Source: Candidatus Roizmanbacteria bacterium | GTDB taxonomy: Bacteria; Patescibacteriota; Microgenomatia; UBA1406; GWC2-37-13 | Reading direction: 5' to 3' | DNA: 64,000 nt | Assembly (NCBI GenBank): GCA_012798265.1 | Contig: JAAZNM010000001.1 | Location: forward strand, 62,001 to 126,000 | Shown here: positions 3,077-61,601 of the stretch, piece after piece | Position numbering within the stretch: position 1 is the first letter of the stretch | Layout: every line of letters begins with the position of its first letter | The notes under the pieces: generated by a model | The model's database searches: none | The model's input: the letters and a program-made list of their open reading frames with translations, nothing else | Told to the model about the DNA's origin: nothing | Program-made: the position numbers and the translations under genes

Positions 3077-3150
3077 GGGCCTATAGCTCAATTGGCTAGA
3101 GCGTCGGATTTGCATTCCGAAGGTTTGGGGTTCAACTCCCCATAGGTCCA
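3077..3150 (+). tRNA. tRNA-Ala (anticodon UGC)
   Basis: A complete cloverleaf: acceptor GGGCCTA/TAGGTCC, D-stem GCTC/GAGC, anticodon stem TCGGA/TCCGA with loop TTTGCAT (anticodon TGC), T-arm TGGGG-TTCAACT-CCCCA and discriminator A. The bases after it are CCG, so the 3' CCA is not fully encoded and must be added. It sits between the promoter and 23S and is presumably cut from the same transcript. In many bacteria tRNA-Ala lies in the 16S-23S spacer; here the 16S gene is elsewhere. Confidence 0.95.
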
Positions 3151-3151
3151 C

Positions 3152-3164
3152 CGCTCATTGACAA
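3152..3164 (+). promoter_or_regulatory. boxA-like antitermination site before 23S
   Basis: CGCTCATTGACAA resembles the rrn boxA consensus TGCTCTTTAACA and lies between tRNA-Ala and 23S, where such a site is expected. NusB, which binds boxA RNA with S10, is encoded at 31009-31380. A second boxA-like site precedes 16S. Confidence 0.5.
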
Positions 3165-3198
3165 TCTGGAGACATCTTAAAAAAATAACGAGAAATGA

Positions 3199-6078
<2,880 letters not shown>

Positions 6079-6143
6079 ATTTCTGTTATTTTAGTTATCA
6101 AAAGATGTCTTTTTTTTGCCCTCCGGTGTTGTAAAATTTATCT

Positions 6144-14618: not shown

Positions 14619-15215
14619 ATGTGGCGAAAAATAGTCATATATTTGGGTCTGTTCTTGAGTTTGATCTCTCTTAATTTTTATATTGCCTACAAAGCTTACG
14701 CAATAAGCAAAAAACAGGCCAACATTAAAACCATCCTTAACGAAATCGCCAAGAATATCGATTCCAAAAGCCAGTTCAATTTTTCATCTGGACCAATGGT
14801 TCTGGGCGCTTACCAAAGCGAGGTCAAACTGAGTGACAGCCGAATAGCCAATCTCAAGGCTTTTTTTCGTAAATACAACTCGGTTCTTTATGACAAGGCC
14901 GATCTAATTGTCAGCGTCTCCGACAGATATCAATTCGACTATCGCCTTCTGCCCGCCATTGCCATGCAGGAATCAAATCTTTGCCGCTATATTCCCGAGG
15001 GATCGCATAACTGTTGGGGATGGGGTATATACGGCGATACCGTCACCAAGTTCGATTCTTACGACGAGGCTATTGAAACTGTCGCCAAAGGCATAAAACA
15101 GGAGTATATAGATAAAGGGCTGATTACCGCCTCCGCGATAATGCAAAAATATACGCCTTCTTCAAACGGCAGTTGGGCACATGGAGTCAATACCTTTCTG
15201 AAAGCTTTAGAATAA
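14619..15215 (+). CDS. Secreted/anchored lysozyme-like glycosidase, copy 1
   Basis: 198 residues. N-terminal signal anchor (residues 4-28, WRKIVIYLGLFLSLISLNF). The C-terminal domain resembles the lysozyme-like/glucosaminidase fold: YRLLPAIAMQESNLCR (candidate catalytic Glu118), a CWGWGIYG block and WAHGVNTFLKALE at the end. It probably cuts peptidoglycan outside the membrane. The protein at 16766-17320 has the same plan (LLP...E, then NPFGWGGGY). A candidate promoter TTGACT-18-TACCAT ends 5 nt before the ATG. The exact glycosidase family is not certain. Confidence 0.75.
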   Translation: MWRKIVIYLGLFLSLISLNFYIAYKAYAISKKQANIKTILNEIAKNIDSKSQFNFSSGPMVLGAYQSEVKLSDSRIANLKAFFRKYNSVLYDKADLIVSVSDRYQFDYRLLPAIAMQESNLCRYIPEGSHNCWGWGIYGDTVTKFDSYDEAIETVAKGIKQEYIDKGLITASAIMQKYTPSSNGSWAHGVNTFLKALE

Positions 15216-15895: not shown

Positions 15896-16762
15896 CTACA
15901 GGCCTAAAAGAAAATCAAGCGTCTTCTGCTTCCTCAAAATCGAAGCATAAAAATAAGCGTTTTGTTTGGCCAAGGCTTTTTCTTTCTCATCCTTAATATT
16001 ACCGAAAAGCTTGTCAAGGTCACTTTCTTCAACCTTGATCCCTTCTTTGTCGGCTATTTCTTGCAAAACAAACTCGATCTTGTAAGTATCGTTTATCTCC
16101 TGGGCATATCTCTGCTTCAACTGTTCCATAGTCAAACCCTTGGATTTAAGATAGGCGTCAACGGTCAATCCAATCTTCTGGATCTCATCAACCTGTTGGG
16201 CAAGCTTGCGGTTAAGTTCTTCCTCAACGATCAGATCCGACATCTCCAGCTTAGCCTCCTTCAGTAAAGCGGCTAAAACCGTGTTCAGCATTTTCTGTTC
16301 TTTTTCGACCTTGGTTTTTTCCGGTTCCTGACCCTTTCCGGGGAGCCAAATATCGTCTTTTTTGAGGTTGGCTTTGGCTTTCCTGACGATTTCTTTGTAG
16401 TCTCCGACCATAACGGTCGGTTTTTCAGCCACTGTCATTTTTATCTGCCAGTCCTCATCTTCCTTGGCTTTTACCAATTCGATCTTTGGCGAGATGACCG
16501 GTGTCAGGGACTCTTTTTTAACGATATCCTCAAAGATCTTGGGAAGGACGTTTTTGATAAGGGTTTGGTAGACCTCTTCTTTTTTCAGGTGCTTTTCGCC
16601 AATATTCTTCGGCACTTTTCCTTTTCTGAAACCTTCAACGGTCAAATCCTTGAGTAGCAGATTAAAGGCTAGTTTATACTCTTTAATTATGTCTTCTTTG
16701 GGAATGTCGATGATTATTTCGGCAGTTCTTTTGGGGAGTTTTTTTACCTTGTGAGTGGACAT
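15896..16762 (-). CDS. tig: Trigger factor lacking the PPIase domain
   Basis: Ribosome-associated chaperone for nascent chains. 288 residues against about 430 for the usual protein. The N-terminal ribosome-binding domain has the signature GFRKGKVP at 44-51. Strands up to about residue 125 (KPTVMVGDYKEI) are followed by only a short linker, and then directly by the C-terminal helical arms (MLNTVLAALLKEAKLEMSDL onward). The FKBP-like prolyl isomerase domain is therefore missing. The gene is 3 nt downstream of the lysozyme-like gene on the same strand. The chaperone role is retained by inference. Confidence 0.88.
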   Translation of the reverse strand: MSTHKVKKLPKRTAEIIIDIPKEDIIKEYKLAFNLLLKDLTVEGFRKGKVPKNIGEKHLKKEEVYQTLIKNVLPKIFEDIVKKESLTPVISPKIELVKAKEDEDWQIKMTVAEKPTVMVGDYKEIVRKAKANLKKDDIWLPGKGQEPEKTKVEKEQKMLNTVLAALLKEAKLEMSDLIVEEELNRKLAQQVDEIQKIGLTVDAYLKSKGLTMEQLKQRYAQEINDTYKIEFVLQEIADKEGIKVEESDLDKLFGNIKDEKEKALAKQNAYFYASILRKQKTLDFLLGL

Positions 16763-16765
16763 ACT

Positions 16766-17320
16766 TTATAATTGTACCGTATTCTGGCCCAAAAGCAATC
16801 GAACATTTTCTTCTTCTTTCTCAAACTGAGCCATAAAATATTTGACTTTGTCAGCCCAGGCGGGATTGCTGGCATAAATAGGGGCGATTTTTTCTACCGT
16901 GTCCGCACCTTTGTTTATATAGTTTTCGCGCAGTCCTTTACCGACCGTCATAACGCTATCTTCCCATTTGTCAAACACGATATAACCGCCACCCCAACCA
17001 AAAGGATTGGCTGATCCGGGATAAACGTATTTTCCGAAAAATGATTCTAGACCGGTGATCGAAGGCAATAAATAACAGTCTAAATTGTACGTCGTGCAAG
17101 CGTTGATAAAAGCGTCGGTCGCACCAAGCAAAGGCGAAGAATATCTCTCAAGCAGTCTTTTTATTGTCAGTTTCTTTATGGTAGAATTGGTATAAGCATT
17201 ACTTTGGTTTTCATTATAGGATATAAGAGCGGAACCACCGGCTATTTTTTCAGCCTTAACGATCCCGGCAAACAAGAAAAAAACTATAAACATTAATACT
17301 ATTCCAACAGTTTTTCTCAT
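16766..17320 (-). CDS. Secreted lysozyme-like glycosidase, copy 2
   Basis: 184 residues with a clear N-terminal signal sequence (MRKTVGIVLMFIVFFLFAGI, then VKAEK). The mature part matches the protein at 14619-15215: CYLLPSITGLESFFGKYVYP (candidate catalytic Glu92), NPFGWGGGY and a terminal helix with WADKVKYFMAQFEKE. A paired Cys75/Cys82 may form a disulfide. It is first in a minus-strand unit with the trigger-factor gene and the unknown 185-residue protein. A perfect consensus promoter lies upstream, but a terminator-like hairpin with U8 comes between promoter and ATG, so expression is probably conditional. Confidence 0.78.
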   Translation of the reverse strand: MRKTVGIVLMFIVFFLFAGIVKAEKIAGGSALISYNENQSNAYTNSTIKKLTIKRLLERYSSPLLGATDAFINACTTYNLDCYLLPSITGLESFFGKYVYPGSANPFGWGGGYIVFDKWEDSVMTVGKGLRENYINKGADTVEKIAPIYASNPAWADKVKYFMAQFEKEEENVRLLLGQNTVQL

Positions 17321-17367
17321 AAAAAAAATCCTAAAGCTTTTCGAACTAATGTTGAAAAACCTTAGGA
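17321..17367 (-). terminator. Terminator-like attenuator directly before an ATG
   Basis: Read on the minus strand, TCCTAAGGTTTTTC pairs with GAAAAGCTTTAGGA (plus coordinates 17329-17367) and is followed by eight T (17321-17328), then at once by ATG 17320. This is the form of an intrinsic terminator. The only source of minus-strand transcripts here is the promoter at 17377-17405, so the hairpin makes up nearly the whole leader. Confidence 0.65.
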
Positions 17368-17376
17368 CCTGGAAGT

Positions 17377-17405
17377 ATTATAGCATAATATTATAAGATT
17401 GTCAA
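17377..17405 (-). promoter_or_regulatory. Full-consensus extended promoter of the lysozyme-like/tig unit
   Basis: On the minus strand TTGACA (17400-17405), a 17-nt spacer and TATAAT (17377-17382), with TGC in front of the -10. This is the best promoter match seen in the window. The -35 box ends 4 nt before the mtaB start codon on the other strand. A separate plus-strand TTGAAA-18-TATTAT (17352-17381) may serve mtaB. Confidence 0.75.
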
Positions 17406-17409
17406 ATAT

Positions 17410-18687
17410 ATGAATTTTAGCTTTTATAGTCACAGTTTTGGCTGTCGGGTAAACCAGGCTGAAAAGGAAACTCTTGATAGGCAATTATTGGATTTAGGTT
17501 GCTGTATAGATCCAATTTCTCCTGATTTCTACATCATAAATACCTGTGCAGTTACCCAAAAAGCCGAAAGGGAGACTAGGCAACTTTTGTACCAGATAAG
17601 GAGAAAACTGCCCCTAACAAAGATCATTATCACCGGATGCAGCGCCACGCTTTGGCTCAAAAACCGTTCCTACCCGTCGGATATTGACCTTATTATCGAC
17701 AATAAAGATAAGGATAATATGCTTGATATTATCGTAAATCGACTCAAACTCAAAAAAACGTTACCGAAAGGTTTGCGGGCAAAAAATAGCCGTTTTCTGA
17801 AATCGGGACGGTTGCTCGTTAAGATCCAGGACGGTTGTCAGCGTTTTTGCTCCTACTGCCTGACCGCTCGCCTACGAGGAATCCCCAGGTCAAAAACGAT
17901 TAAGGACATCCTCAAAGAGATAAAAAATCAACAGGAAGGAACCAGAGAGGTAATCCTTACCGGAATCAACACGGAGTATTTTGGCAGAGACCACGGCGAA
18001 AGTCTTCCCGGACTTATAGAAACAATTGTCGCAAAGACGGAAATACCGAGAATAAGCTTTGGTTCAATCCATCCGTGGAGTATCGACAAAACTTTTCTTA
18101 ATCTCTACAAAAATATCCTTAACCTAAAACGCCTGGTTGATTTTTTTCATATTCCGCTCCAATCGGGATCAAACAGGATCCTGAGCCTGATGAAGCGGGG
18201 ATATACCAAGGAGGAGTTTTCGGAAAAACTGCAGGTGATTGCCGCCACAAATCCTTATGCTTTTATTTCCACTGATTTGATCGCCGGTTTTGTCGGCGAG
18301 TCAGATAAAGAATTTGAGGAAACTCTTGATTTTTTGGAAAAATCACCCATCAGCGGATTTCATATATTCAGGTTCTCCCAAAGACCAATGACTGCCGCTT
18401 TCTTCATGGCTAAGAAGATTGCAGAACCAAGCCAGTCGAAAAAACAGAGTAGGGCCGAAACCTTAAGGGGTTTAAGCCGCAAAAAATATCTGATGTTTTT
18501 GGAAATGAATCTGGGAAGGACTTCATCTGCCTTGTTTCTGGCCGAAAAAAAGGGCGATTATTGCCAAGCACTTCTTGACAATCAACTTCCGATTTTAGTC
18601 AATTCTGATAAGGCCTTGGCAGGCGAGATAAAAAATGTTAAAATACTTGAGGTCAAAAAAGGTCGTTTAATAGGAAAACTTGTTTGA
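17410..18687 (+). CDS. mtaB: tRNA methylthiotransferase, MtaB type
   Basis: Radical-SAM enzyme that adds a methylthio group to N6-threonylcarbamoyladenosine-37 of tRNAs. 425 residues. The N-terminal methylthiotransferase domain has the three conserved cysteines C12, C46 and C77 for one Fe-S cluster. The radical-SAM cluster motif DGCQRFCSYC gives C143, C147 and C150. IPLQSGSNRILSLMKRGYT is the usual substrate-channel block. A short TRAM-like tail ends the protein. MiaB is the alternative, but the SHSFGCRVNQAE start fits MtaB better. It ends 2 nt before tRNA-Asp. Confidence 0.9.
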   Translation: MNFSFYSHSFGCRVNQAEKETLDRQLLDLGCCIDPISPDFYIINTCAVTQKAERETRQLLYQIRRKLPLTKIIITGCSATLWLKNRSYPSDIDLIIDNKDKDNMLDIIVNRLKLKKTLPKGLRAKNSRFLKSGRLLVKIQDGCQRFCSYCLTARLRGIPRSKTIKDILKEIKNQQEGTREVILTGINTEYFGRDHGESLPGLIETIVAKTEIPRISFGSIHPWSIDKTFLNLYKNILNLKRLVDFFHIPLQSGSNRILSLMKRGYTKEEFSEKLQVIAATNPYAFISTDLIAGFVGESDKEFEETLDFLEKSPISGFHIFRFSQRPMTAAFFMAKKIAEPSQSKKQSRAETLRGLSRKKYLMFLEMNLGRTSSALFLAEKKGDYCQALLDNQLPILVNSDKALAGEIKNVKILEVKKGRLIGKLV

Positions 18688-56420: not shown

Positions 56421-57936
<1,516 letters not shown>

Positions 57937-57998
57937 ATTTTTTTTATAATTTTTTATTAAAAAAATTAACTTTAGGGTATCTATCCCTAACCCGATTT

Positions 57999-58820
57999 TT
58001 AGGCTAAAACTATTTTTGTCCCCGGACGGGGATATTTGAAGGCAGAAGCTCCCGTAGATATGTCCTCTTCGGTAAAATGTCTCCAGATGGTGATTTCCAG
58101 ATAAGGATTGTCCTTTTTCCCTGATGAACCAGGGTAAATAACCAGTTCGCCCGGTTTTCCGCCAAACAGATTGGTAACATATCTGGCTTTTCTTTTTACA
58201 TCGTTTATCTCTATATCCAAAAAATCACCATATTCATACTTTCCTTTCATGTCTTCACTGGTGATCGAAGATTTTATGTTACCATAGTTGTCAATGTGTA
58301 AGATATAAAAACCGTCGAAGCCGATTATCGAATCAGGTTGTAATTCTTCCAGTTCCAACTCATCTTCAAGATTATCCATAAGGTGGGCGGCCACCCGTGC
58401 ATAAAGGTCGCGGGAACGGAATTGACTGCCTTTATCCAAACCGCGATAGACAAAGATCTCATCGATCTTTTCCTTTATCAAGGAATAGCAAAAACCGGCA
58501 TTGGGACCGCAGATATAGATACCCGACTTAAGCCTTATAACGAGAAAGTCTGCTCCTTTTGATTTGTCCACCCCCTCTTTGGTCTGAAGCCGGGGATCGG
58601 TATTTATGAAAAAAACCGTCTCCAAGGGCTTACCAAATCTCTCTTCTATCTCCGTTATCTGGGAAAGAAGAAAACTTGTATGCAGTGTTGAGGGAGTCGA
58701 GGCGACAAAAGTGATCTTGGCTTTGAGACTGTCGGAGGAATAACCTTCGACAACCGTCCGGAATTCCTGACAGGTAAGCATATCTGAGGCCCAATCGGAG
58801 ATGACTATTAGTTTTTTCAT
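57999..58820 (-). CDS. SAM hydrolase / SAM hydroxide adenosyltransferase (DUF62 family)
   Basis: 273 residues. Family text is clear: FFINTDPRLQ, YICGPNAGFCYSLI, FRSRDLYARVAAHL in the N-terminal domain, and ILHIDNYGNIKSSI plus the C-terminal beta-barrel (GELVIYPGSSGKKDNPYLEI). Known members split S-adenosylmethionine to adenosine and methionine. The usual N-terminal LLTDFG is changed to VISDWASD, so substrate contacts may differ. The start overlaps the transporter gene by 4 nt. Why this enzyme sits behind a metal transporter is unknown. The 3' end abuts the 16S processing stem. Confidence 0.85.
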   Translation of the reverse strand: MKKLIVISDWASDMLTCQEFRTVVEGYSSDSLKAKITFVASTPSTLHTSFLLSQITEIEERFGKPLETVFFINTDPRLQTKEGVDKSKGADFLVIRLKSGIYICGPNAGFCYSLIKEKIDEIFVYRGLDKGSQFRSRDLYARVAAHLMDNLEDELELEELQPDSIIGFDGFYILHIDNYGNIKSSITSEDMKGKYEYGDFLDIEINDVKRKARYVTNLFGGKPGELVIYPGSSGKKDNPYLEITIWRHFTEEDISTGASAFKYPRPGTKIVLA

Positions 58821-60058
58821 AGGAATGAACTAATTAAAACGAAAAGCGATGAAATTATTATTATAACAGAACTTATAATGGCAAAATAATTGTATATCTT
58901 GCTGTTTACATGTTGACCCATCAAATCTTTATTATTGGTAATCTTAAGCAAAAAGAAGAATATGAGCGGCAGCAAAAATCCGTTCATGGCCTGGGTGATG
59001 AAAACTATCTTGAACAAGGAAACGAACGGCAATAATACTATTAATGCAGCCGCCACCACCTGGAAAATAAAGATTCCATAGAACAATCTTCCTTTTTGGA
59101 AAGGGGCATCTAAACTGCCTTCATATCCAAAAAACTCGGCAAAAGCATAGGCGGTGGTTAATGAGATAATTATGATGCCCATAAGGGCGGCGTTGATTAT
59201 TCCGAATCCGAAAAGAAAACCGGCCAACTCACCGGCAAAAGGCTTAATGGCCAAAGCCGCCTGCTCACCCGAAGTCAAAGGTATATTATGGACAAACAAA
59301 GTCGACGCCGTCGCCACAATCATGAAAAATGAGAAAAAATCCGTGAACAAAGCGCCAAAATAAGTCTCAAACTGGGTAAACTTGAGTTTGTCGACAGACA
59401 GTTTTTTGTCCAAAACAAAACTGTGGACAAAAAACTGTCCCCATGGAGTAATCGTCGTTCCCAAAACCGCGATCGAGGCAAATATGAACTCTTTTGATAA
59501 CTTTATTCCGGTCGGAACAACCAGGCTTTTGAAAGCCAAACTCCAGTCGGGTTTGGCTTTGAAGGCGGAAATCACGTAAGAAAAATAAAGAACCACCGCC
59601 AATAAGAATATTTTTTGATTGACTTCATAGTTGCCTTTTGAGACGATAATTATGGAAAAAGCCACCGACAGGAAAAGAAAAGGGGCGACCGGCAAACCAA
59701 ACATTTGGAAGGTGGCTTTTAAAGCGGCGAAGTTGGAAACGATCGTCCCCAGATTGGCGATGAACAGAATGAAAAAAACTACCACCGACAGGATTATTCC
59801 GTACCTTTCCCTTATCAGATCTCCCAGTCCTTTTCGTGTCACCAAAGCAATCCTTACTCCCATCTCCTGAGTAATGGCCAACAAAAAAGTTACTACAAAA
59901 AGTATAAACAGAATCGAATAACCGAATTTGGCTCCGGCTAAGGAATAAGTAGCCACTCCGGCCCCGTCGTCATCGGAAACGGCCGTGATTGTCGCCGGAC
60001 CGAAAACCGCCAAAAAAATCATCAGCCGATATCTGGCTTGTTTGATAAACTCTTTCAT
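58817..60058 (-). CDS. NRAMP-related divalent metal transporter, possibly for Mg2+
   Basis: 413 residues, 11 predicted TM spans. TM1 reads AVSDDDGAGVATYSLAG (residues 26-42) where Mn/Fe NRAMPs have the DPGN motif: the Asp (D31) is kept but Asn is Gly. TM6 reads VLGTTITPWGQFF (198-210) where they have ATxMPH: the soft-metal Met ligand is Thr and the His is Trp. Loss of the Met ligand is the mark of the Mg2+-carrying NRAMP-related group, so Mg2+ is a reasonable guess. The 4-nt overlap with an MgtE_N/CBS protein gene supports this. Measured specificity is unknown. Confidence 0.85.
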   Translation of the reverse strand: MKEFIKQARYRLMIFLAVFGPATITAVSDDDGAGVATYSLAGAKFGYSILFILFVVTFLLAITQEMGVRIALVTRKGLGDLIRERYGIILSVVVFFILFIANLGTIVSNFAALKATFQMFGLPVAPFLFLSVAFSIIIVSKGNYEVNQKIFLLAVVLYFSYVISAFKAKPDWSLAFKSLVVPTGIKLSKEFIFASIAVLGTTITPWGQFFVHSFVLDKKLSVDKLKFTQFETYFGALFTDFFSFFMIVATASTLFVHNIPLTSGEQAALAIKPFAGELAGFLFGFGIINAALMGIIIISLTTAYAFAEFFGYEGSLDAPFQKGRLFYGIFIFQVVAAALIVLLPFVSLFKIVFITQAMNGFLLPLIFFFLLKITNNKDLMGQHVNSKIYNYFAIISSVIIIISSLFVLISSFL

Positions 60059-61269
60059 GAGAATTTTTTAAGAATGTATTTTGTCAAATCGTCAACGTTA
60101 ACTATACCGATCATATTCTTTTGTTCGTTAATTACCGGAAGCGCTTGAATTTTGTATTTTAGCATTTTTTTTATGGCGATTTCGCCCGGAGTGGTCAAGT
60201 GAATAATGATGACGTTTTGGGTCATGAACTTATAAACGGGAACGTCCAGGTTTTGGAGAAGAAGCTTATGGAGATTGAAAACACCTACCAACTGGTTGTC
60301 GTTGTTAACCACGTAAACGTAGTTGAGGAAATAAAAATCTTCCGTCTCCTTTTTTATTTTGCCTATTGCCTCGGCAACAGTGCAGTTTGATGAAACGGTA
60401 ATAAACTCCGTAGTCAAAAGTCCGCCGATCGTGGTTTTTGACAAACCGATTAGATGAAGTACCGATTTCCTCTTTGTTTCGGGCAGGAGATTGAGGATAT
60501 CCTCACGCCTTTTTTTCGATAAGGAAAGAATTATGTCGACCGCCTCGTCTATGTCGATTAAATCTATGAGTTGGGCGGCTTTTTCCGGACGAAAATGACG
60601 GAAAATATCAGACTGATAATTGATGTTGAGGTTACTGATGACCTCAGCGGCAAATTTGTCGTCAAGCAACCGTAAAATTCTCCGGGCGCTGACCAGATTG
60701 GTCTGCTCCAGATGATCGGCCAGATCCTCAGGCCTCAATCTCTCCAACTTATCCTCTTCTTTTTTTAATTTTACCTTTCCCCGAGCAAGTTCAAGCGGTT
60801 GAATGTCGGCCCATGAAAGGAATCTTGGCGTCAGGTTGACGTTGGCGACCCTAAACAGTTTGATAAGGGTATTTTCCAGACCAAACCAGCGGGTGATCCC
60901 CAAAAAACCGACGTCAACACCGTAGATATACCAACCTTCACCTTCTTTTTGAAAGGCAACATCGTTAACCCTAACGATTTTATTGCCCCCTATATCTATT
61001 ATCTGTTTATCCAGAAGATTCTTAAGGACTGATAGTTCATTATCCTGCAACTCCGTTACCAGATAGTTTTTCGATATGATTACGCTACCGTTGATTTTGT
61101 TTACGTAATCTATGGAAACAGTGTACTTTTTTTTGTTTTTGTCCAGAAAGATTATCTTCGTAATTTTTGGCTTTTCTATGGCTAAAAAGATGAGATCGTC
61201 CAAAAAACCGATCTCGATTCCATCTTCAGAGTAGACCTTTCTCCCCTTTATCTCCGAAAAATAAAGCAT
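60055..61269 (-). CDS. PRC-barrel + MgtE_N + CBS regulator-like protein
   Basis: 404 residues from ATG 61269 (MLYFSEIKGRKVYSEDGIEI); upstream in-frame ATGs lie before the promoter. Domain order: two PRC-barrel-like pieces in the first 160 residues, an MgtE N-terminal helical domain about 178-275 (RPEDLADHLEQTNLVSARRI ... LLPETKRKSVLHLIG), and a CBS pair to the end (LTTEFITVSSNCTVAEAIGK and FMTQNVIIIHLTTPGEIAIK). No membrane span. In MgtE these two domains sense Mg2+ and gate the pore; here they are separate from any channel but co-expressed with the NRAMP-like carrier. Regulation of that carrier is an inference. Confidence 0.85.
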   Translation of the reverse strand: MLYFSEIKGRKVYSEDGIEIGFLDDLIFLAIEKPKITKIIFLDKNKKKYTVSIDYVNKINGSVIISKNYLVTELQDNELSVLKNLLDKQIIDIGGNKIVRVNDVAFQKEGEGWYIYGVDVGFLGITRWFGLENTLIKLFRVANVNLTPRFLSWADIQPLELARGKVKLKKEEDKLERLRPEDLADHLEQTNLVSARRILRLLDDKFAAEVISNLNINYQSDIFRHFRPEKAAQLIDLIDIDEAVDIILSLSKKRREDILNLLPETKRKSVLHLIGLSKTTIGGLLTTEFITVSSNCTVAEAIGKIKKETEDFYFLNYVYVVNNDNQLVGVFNLHKLLLQNLDVPVYKFMTQNVIIIHLTTPGEIAIKKMLKYKIQALPVINEQKNMIGIVNVDDLTKYILKKFS

Positions 61270-61275
61270 AAAAAA

Positions 61276-61284
61276 ATTATAACA
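61276..61284 (-). promoter_or_regulatory. Extended -10 promoter of the metal-transport operon
   Basis: On the minus strand TGT-TATAAT ends exactly 6 nt before ATG 61269. Same spacing as at pfkB and ppsA, predicting a leaderless transcript. Confidence 0.65.
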
Positions 61285-61369
61285 CGGCCTTATGAAATTA
61301 CAAATTACAAACATCAATCCAATAATAAAATTCCAAATGCAATTTGAAATTAAAAAACTCCTGTGTCTG

Positions 61370-61378
61370 TGTTATAAT
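61370..61378 (+). promoter_or_regulatory. Extended -10 promoter of the tRNA-Ile/tRNA-Val pair
   Basis: TGT-TATAAT, identical in sequence to the divergent promoter at 61276-61284, about 53 nt before tRNA-Ile. The -35 region is not conserved. The 45 nt between are not a complete tRNA. Confidence 0.6.
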
Positions 61379-61430
61379 TTTTACGTTTAGATGCGTAGTT
61401 TAGTGGCCCCGCACAAGTTTTCCGGACATA

Positions 61431-61502
61431 GCGCTCTTAGTTTAACGGCAAAACAGTTCTCTGATAAAGAACAGAGCGATGGTTCGACTCCATCAGAGCG
61501 CA
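61431..61502 (+). tRNA. tRNA-Ile (anticodon GAU)
   Basis: Acceptor GCGCTCT/AGAGCGC, D-arm GTTT/AAAC, anticodon stem GTTCT/AGAAC with loop CTGATAA (GAT), T-arm GATGG-TTCGACT-CCATC and discriminator A. CCA is not encoded (CAA follows). In many bacteria this tRNA sits in the rRNA operon; here it is with tRNA-Val. Confidence 0.95.
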
Positions 61503-61526
61503 CAAAGCACCTGTCGGTTAGCCCTA

Positions 61527-61601
61527 GGTCGCTTAGCTCAACGGCAGAGCGCTTCGTTTACATCGAAGATGTTGGGGGTTCAAATCCCTCAGCGACCACC
61601 A
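61527..61601 (+). tRNA. tRNA-Val (anticodon UAC)
   Basis: Acceptor GGTCGCT/AGCGACC, D-arm GCTC/GAGC, anticodon stem CTTCG/CGAAG with loop TTTACAT (TAC), T-arm GGGGG-TTCAAAT-CCCTC, discriminator A and an encoded CCA. With the GAC species at 19849 it covers all Val codons. Confidence 0.96.

Follow-up and report, generated by a model that had tools for sequence, protein, structure and literature searches.

A conserved promoter–hairpin unit in Microgenomatia, a probable small RNA gene

Why should a perfect bacterial promoter lead straight into a terminator-like hairpin that is followed at once by a start codon? The question is raised by a locus in the window analysed here, a stretch of 64 000 nucleotides from a Candidatus Roizmanbacteria genome (0.95 Mb, 8 contigs). 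The minus strand from 17405 to 17321 carries, in this order, TTGACA, a 17-nt spacer ending in TGC, TATAAT, 6 nt, a hairpin, T8 and an ATG. An earlier note on this DNA had described a perfect extended promoter, a hairpin, T8 and an immediate ATG, and every one of these elements is found in the minus-strand sequence. The features of the locus are listed below; members are the related loci described further on.

17400..17405, minus strand: -35 hexamer TTGACA (from sequence; at least 5/6 matching in 135 of 141 members)
17392..17399 (approximate), minus strand: promoter-spacer region with a conserved motif, here CTTATAAT (from position counts)
17377..17385, minus strand: extended -10, TGC-TATAAT, with TATAAT at 17382-17377 (-10 at least 5/6 matching in 135 of 141 members; TG in most)
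17321..17370, minus strand: probable small RNA gene; its predicted transcript, about 50 nt long, begins with the A at 17370 and finishes with T8 (from start spacing and model matches)
17354..17370, minus strand: 5' arm of the helix, AGGTCCTAAGGTTTTTC (consensus AGAUCCUAAGGU...; from covariation)
17359..17362, minus strand: 5' half of the conserved core, AGGT, comprising A9, G10, G11 and U12 (from pair counts across members)
17326..17342, minus strand: 3' arm of the helix, GAAAAGCTTTAGGATTT (from sequence and covariation)
17321..17328, minus strand: T8 run, predicted intrinsic termination signal (from sequence and T-run counts in members)
16766..17320, minus strand: secreted glucosaminidase/lysozyme-like gene, 184 aa, its ATG at 17320 abutting T8; putative read-through target
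15896..16762, minus strand: neighbouring gene, trigger factor
14619..15215, plus strand: second lysozyme-like paralog, which in most other families lies directly upstream of the RNA gene

The pattern TTGACA-N14-TG-N-TATAAT has one exact match in the 64 kb, at the hairpin locus; with up to two mismatches, 0.56 matches are expected from shuffling. The same promoter is the sole site scoring 12/12 within the 7 kb scanned. The hairpin (17370-17326) has 17 contiguous pairs, wobbles included, which run from the predicted +1 into the T-run and enclose a loop of 10-11 nt; the size of 39 nt first given for it is too short. Its RNA fold (-20.4 kcal/mol, z = -3.55) is equalled by 2 of 200 shuffled sequences. 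A terminator scan missed it because only loops of 3-8 nt were permitted. The RNA gene is matched by the covariance models R1 (E 2.5e-9) and R3 (E 5.9e-9), E-values that are rough owing to a short calibration.

The ATG directly behind T8 does open the gene that had been called a secreted lysozyme-like one; the likeness is weak (Pfam PF01832, E 0.005, under the cut-off). It is followed, as had been stated, by the trigger factor gene and its partner, which codes for a DUF5660 protein. Near relatives of the lysozyme-like gene are in Candidatus Roizmanbacteria genomes. AGGA lies within the 3' arm of the hairpin, 8 nt ahead of the ATG, and is a possible sequestered Shine–Dalgarno sequence; the anti-Shine–Dalgarno CCTCC is found in 16S. 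The rRNA genes of the window (3077-6081 and 56422-61601) are unlinked, since 23S and 16S share a strand but are separated by about 50 kb; a tRNA-Ala is just upstream of 23S and a tRNA-Ile 3.5 kb past 16S.

The unit is not confined to the window. Orthologues of the lysozyme-like gene (33-58% protein identity) have a near-identical element upstream, AGAUCCUAAGGUU...loop...AAGCUUUAGGAUUUUUUUU, and their promoters are near-perfect and equally far away. Promoter, start spacing, hairpin and T-run occur together in 59 Roizmanbacteria loci. A first covariance model gave one strong match per genome in 61 of the 72 family genomes; weaker second matches are mostly the opposite strand of the palindrome, save for a few weak ones and one in G069, where a second copy is present. 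The hairpin, for which the earlier note had suggested a comparison with relatives, is thus part of a unit that almost all Roizmanbacteria relatives have, once per genome.

Across the class Microgenomatia, the first model gave weaker single matches. Sixty of these were inspected, and they have promoter, start spacing and U-run as in the window; one match (L154, found with R1 in G254) was removed as false since it has no promoter, R3 giving a better site in that genome, and for L139 the true site lies just upstream of the reported match. The third model (R3) takes in the -10 and diverged forms. It has matches in 201 of 372 class genomes, spread over at least 37 families; the unit is in single copy except in G069, which has two. 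The second copy (L120) is diverged, has a perfect promoter and lies 13 kb from the first, beside a convergent gene. About half of the class genomes give no match with R3, a model by which weak members are missed, and diverged forms occur in some families. Covariance-model searches found the unit in none of about 263 genomes from other Patescibacteria classes, and all 15 matches in 287 genomes sampled from the phylum fall within the class. One match outside the class (G616; R2, E 0.007) was rejected as an ordinary terminator lacking the promoter/AGATCC unit. The exact pattern was not matched in viral contigs.

The promoter scores at least 11/12 in 126 of 141 members and 12/12 in 70, and the helix sets in 6-8 nt past the -10 in 140 of the 141. 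The predicted transcription start is the first base of the helix, the A at 17370 in the window. The T-run comprises 6-9 T in all Roizmanbacteria members, where the proposed conservation of the U-run holds fully, and 5-8 in most others; it is missing in f10, f38, G170 and G083. The sequence signal for a stop is a T-run in nearly all members and a separate terminator hairpin in the remaining forms. The promoter spacer has its own motif, with a class consensus of about C-CTATA[A/G]T; in the window, CTTATAAT begins two bases past the -35. CCTATA[A/G]T is present in most members (17399-17392 in the window), and several families (L107, L108, L114, L115, L144, L164, L165) repeat it about 20 bp ahead of the -35; it is possibly a regulator site. 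Several other families (L114, L116, L117, L123, L126, L107) have a second small inverted repeat directly past the U-run, sometimes with a T-run of its own.

Compensatory changes, proposed earlier as a check of the hairpin, are abundant. Among 46 distinct family sequences, 9 of the 17 pairs show changes in both partners; the observed values were not reached in any of 500 shuffles. In 64 class-wide sequences, double changes affect 12 of the 17 pairs and 145 cells, compared with 58±7 after shuffling and at most 49 in slid controls. G.U pairs are seen in either orientation (G-U at pairs 2, 8 and 10; U-G at 7 and 12). They bear on whether the element works as DNA, for example as an operator or a recombination site, since an imperfect palindrome does adjoin the promoter. 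G.U pairs of both senses are tolerated by RNA and not by DNA, however, and T-run, start spacing and strand are all fixed; we regard a DNA-level palindrome as extremely improbable.

The conserved core lies 9-12 bases from the 5' end and consists of a wobble or mismatch at pair 10, a near-invariant G-C pair 11 and U12. In 68 sequences, pair 10 is G.U in 44, A-U in 8, unpaired (mostly G.G) in 16 and never G-C; pair 11 is G-C in 66 and G.U in 2. That a weak pair should persist here, always equally far from the 5' end, suggests a binding site, and the core is most likely bound by a protein. The loop sequence varies across the class, so any mode of action in trans is a guess. In family f30, with EF-P as the next gene, the loop GGCUCCUCUAAAA is near-invariant and fits an anti-Shine–Dalgarno sequence (L142, L145, L148, L225, L229-L236). 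Such a loop was rejected as a general mechanism: C-rich loops are found in f30 (CUCCUC), f18 (UUCC) and f5 (CCCCUC) and are absent in Roizmanbacteria. Complementarity of GAUCC/UAAGG to the 16S 3' end was also discarded, as these bases are paired in the helix and lost in f10 and f19.

The flanking genes were compared at 142 loci by local homology searches, and at a few of them it is uncertain which of the two lysozyme-like paralogs is present. The next annotated gene downstream is lysozyme-like in 116, EF-P in 11 and trigger factor in 4, and there is none in 7. The upstream neighbour is as a rule the second lysozyme-like paralog or else a divergent gene resembling mtaB, thrS or uvrB. The claim that no upstream gene could be served by the terminator is therefore right for the window, where a divergent mtaB-like gene starts at 17410, 5 bp past the -35, and does not carry over to most other families: outside Roizmanbacteria, a lysozyme-like paralog generally ends 30-130 nt upstream on the same strand. 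This position would suit an ordinary intrinsic terminator of the paralog with the promoter of the next gene nearby. Yet the promoter sits between paralog and terminator and fires into the latter, and loci with a divergent upstream gene (mtaB, thrS, uvrB) still have the unit. A class-wide core and separate terminators would also be unexpected, which makes a plain terminator very unlikely.

In some families the hairpin and the stop signal are distinct. In f10, f38, G170 (f18) and G083 (f15), a hairpin without U-run is followed by a separate terminator; f19 and f14 have a short U-run or none and then a second, stronger terminator. When folded, these separate-terminator forms have a 5'-end helix of 7-8 pairs, a G.G mismatch, a short run of pairs, an internal loop in most, and an apical stem. 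The one-hairpin forms have G.U, G.G or A-U at the position of the G.G mismatch. Because of the separate terminators and the variable downstream gene, we consider the hairpin to be more than a terminator and not the leader of one gene.

The main competing explanation is that the hairpin is a cis attenuator of the lysozyme-like operon, which terminates transcription or masks the AGGA until a protein or a condition opens it. The lysozyme-like gene comes next in most members, its ATG stands right behind the U-run in about 40 of 142, the AGGA is at Shine–Dalgarno distance inside the 3' arm, and the window has no space for another promoter. Elsewhere, however, the downstream gene is variable or absent. 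A tRNA-Leu(UAG) lies directly downstream in six families (f14, f19, f23, f26, f38 and f43; L239, L241, L243, L246, L251, L133), and in further families it is near the RNA gene. Several genomes, from a few genera, have an inserted repeat of about 200 bp that sits exactly at the junction of U-run and ATG and parts the two, with the unit itself retained, and several families have separate terminators. The inserted repeats, ahead of the lysozyme-like ATG at L008, L012, L016, L017, L037, L040, L042, L051, L056 and L057, are related palindromes (AGAGTCCGTTTCC...) resembling a mobile repeat that favours a particular site. ATGG or GTGG is found past the U-run in many members; a leader peptide there was rejected, as the frames have 2-50 codons and no common length.

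Sequence and fold of the window reveal no pairing upstream that competes with the hairpin, whose helix begins at +1. The first bases of the transcript are thus in the helix, none being left for an antiterminator, and not every member is coupled to the lysozyme-like gene, so attenuation is unsupported as a general function. Protein-dependent opening of the hairpin may occur, and we consider a cis attenuator unlikely on the whole. The earlier note offered two outcomes, attenuation or an abundant RNA of about 50 nt. The comparison speaks for the second, because the unit is conserved class-wide, occurs once per genome, has varied next genes and in places ends at separate terminators.

The locus has the features expected of a small RNA gene: its own promoter at a fixed distance, a stop signal, a structure backed by covariation and varied flanking genes. 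It is, in our judgement, quite likely the gene of an abundant, self-terminating RNA that is probably protein-bound and trans-acting, with read-through also feeding the lysozyme-like/trigger-factor operon in Roizmanbacteria. RNA polymerase would initiate at the first base of the hairpin from the near-perfect extended -10 promoter, strongly and probably constitutively, and would halt about 50 nt further on at the hairpin's own U-run. The product would be a single hairpin whose 5' end is paired and whose 3' end is a U tail, and is expected to be stable. A putative protein would read the core (wobble or G.G at pair 10, G-C at pair 11, U12), and the RNA would act in trans. In Roizmanbacteria with the ATG abutting the U-run, polymerase reading through would yield the mRNA of the lysozyme-like, trigger factor and DUF5660 genes, supplied by the same promoter, and the hairpin would also hold this operon at a low level. 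Such a fixed read-through input is likely, because there is no other promoter between the divergent gene and the ATG. The more specific proposal of a housekeeping RNA peculiar to Microgenomatia, a self-terminating hairpin of about 50 nt with a wobble/G.G core bound by a dedicated protein and a conserved trans-acting role in cells that lack Hfq and, mostly, a recognisable 6S RNA, has in our view about an even chance of being correct.

Rfam 15, searched at gathering and relaxed thresholds with the window and twelve relatives, returned only tRNAs and weak sub-gathering matches. In the open-access literature, to which the search was confined, nothing was found on the hairpin RNA. Hfq was found in none of 59 class genomes, with positive controls. 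6S RNA (RF00013) has no match in the window and none above the cut-off in 40 class genomes. The sole sub-threshold 6S matches in these 40 genomes are G087:C1:683184-683343 and G091:C5:145159-145319; both genomes also have the hairpin RNA. To our knowledge, hardly any work has been done on regulatory RNA in the Candidate Phyla Radiation. A class-wide RNA family with a precise predicted start, a structure and a core can be searched for in existing metatranscriptomes, and its partner could be fished out in vitro. The hairpin RNA would also serve as a lineage marker, and as a case of one hairpin being both product and terminator.

Like the intrinsically terminated small RNAs of bacteria, the unit has its own sigma-70 promoter, a short structured transcript and a terminator hairpin with a U tail. 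In contrast to them, a single hairpin from +1 makes up the whole predicted RNA in most members, the class has no Hfq, and the conserved part is the helix, not a loop seed. With transcription attenuators and terminating 5' leaders it shares, in the window and many relatives, a terminator-like hairpin between promoter and ATG, but it has neither antiterminator nor leader peptide and is not bound to one downstream gene. In standing it resembles 6S RNA (RF00013), as a class-wide, single-copy and probably abundant small RNA, although it is much shorter and lacks an open central bubble. Judged from its sequence, it is a new family among the known small structured RNAs. What sets it apart is that in most members the conserved hairpin is itself the terminator.
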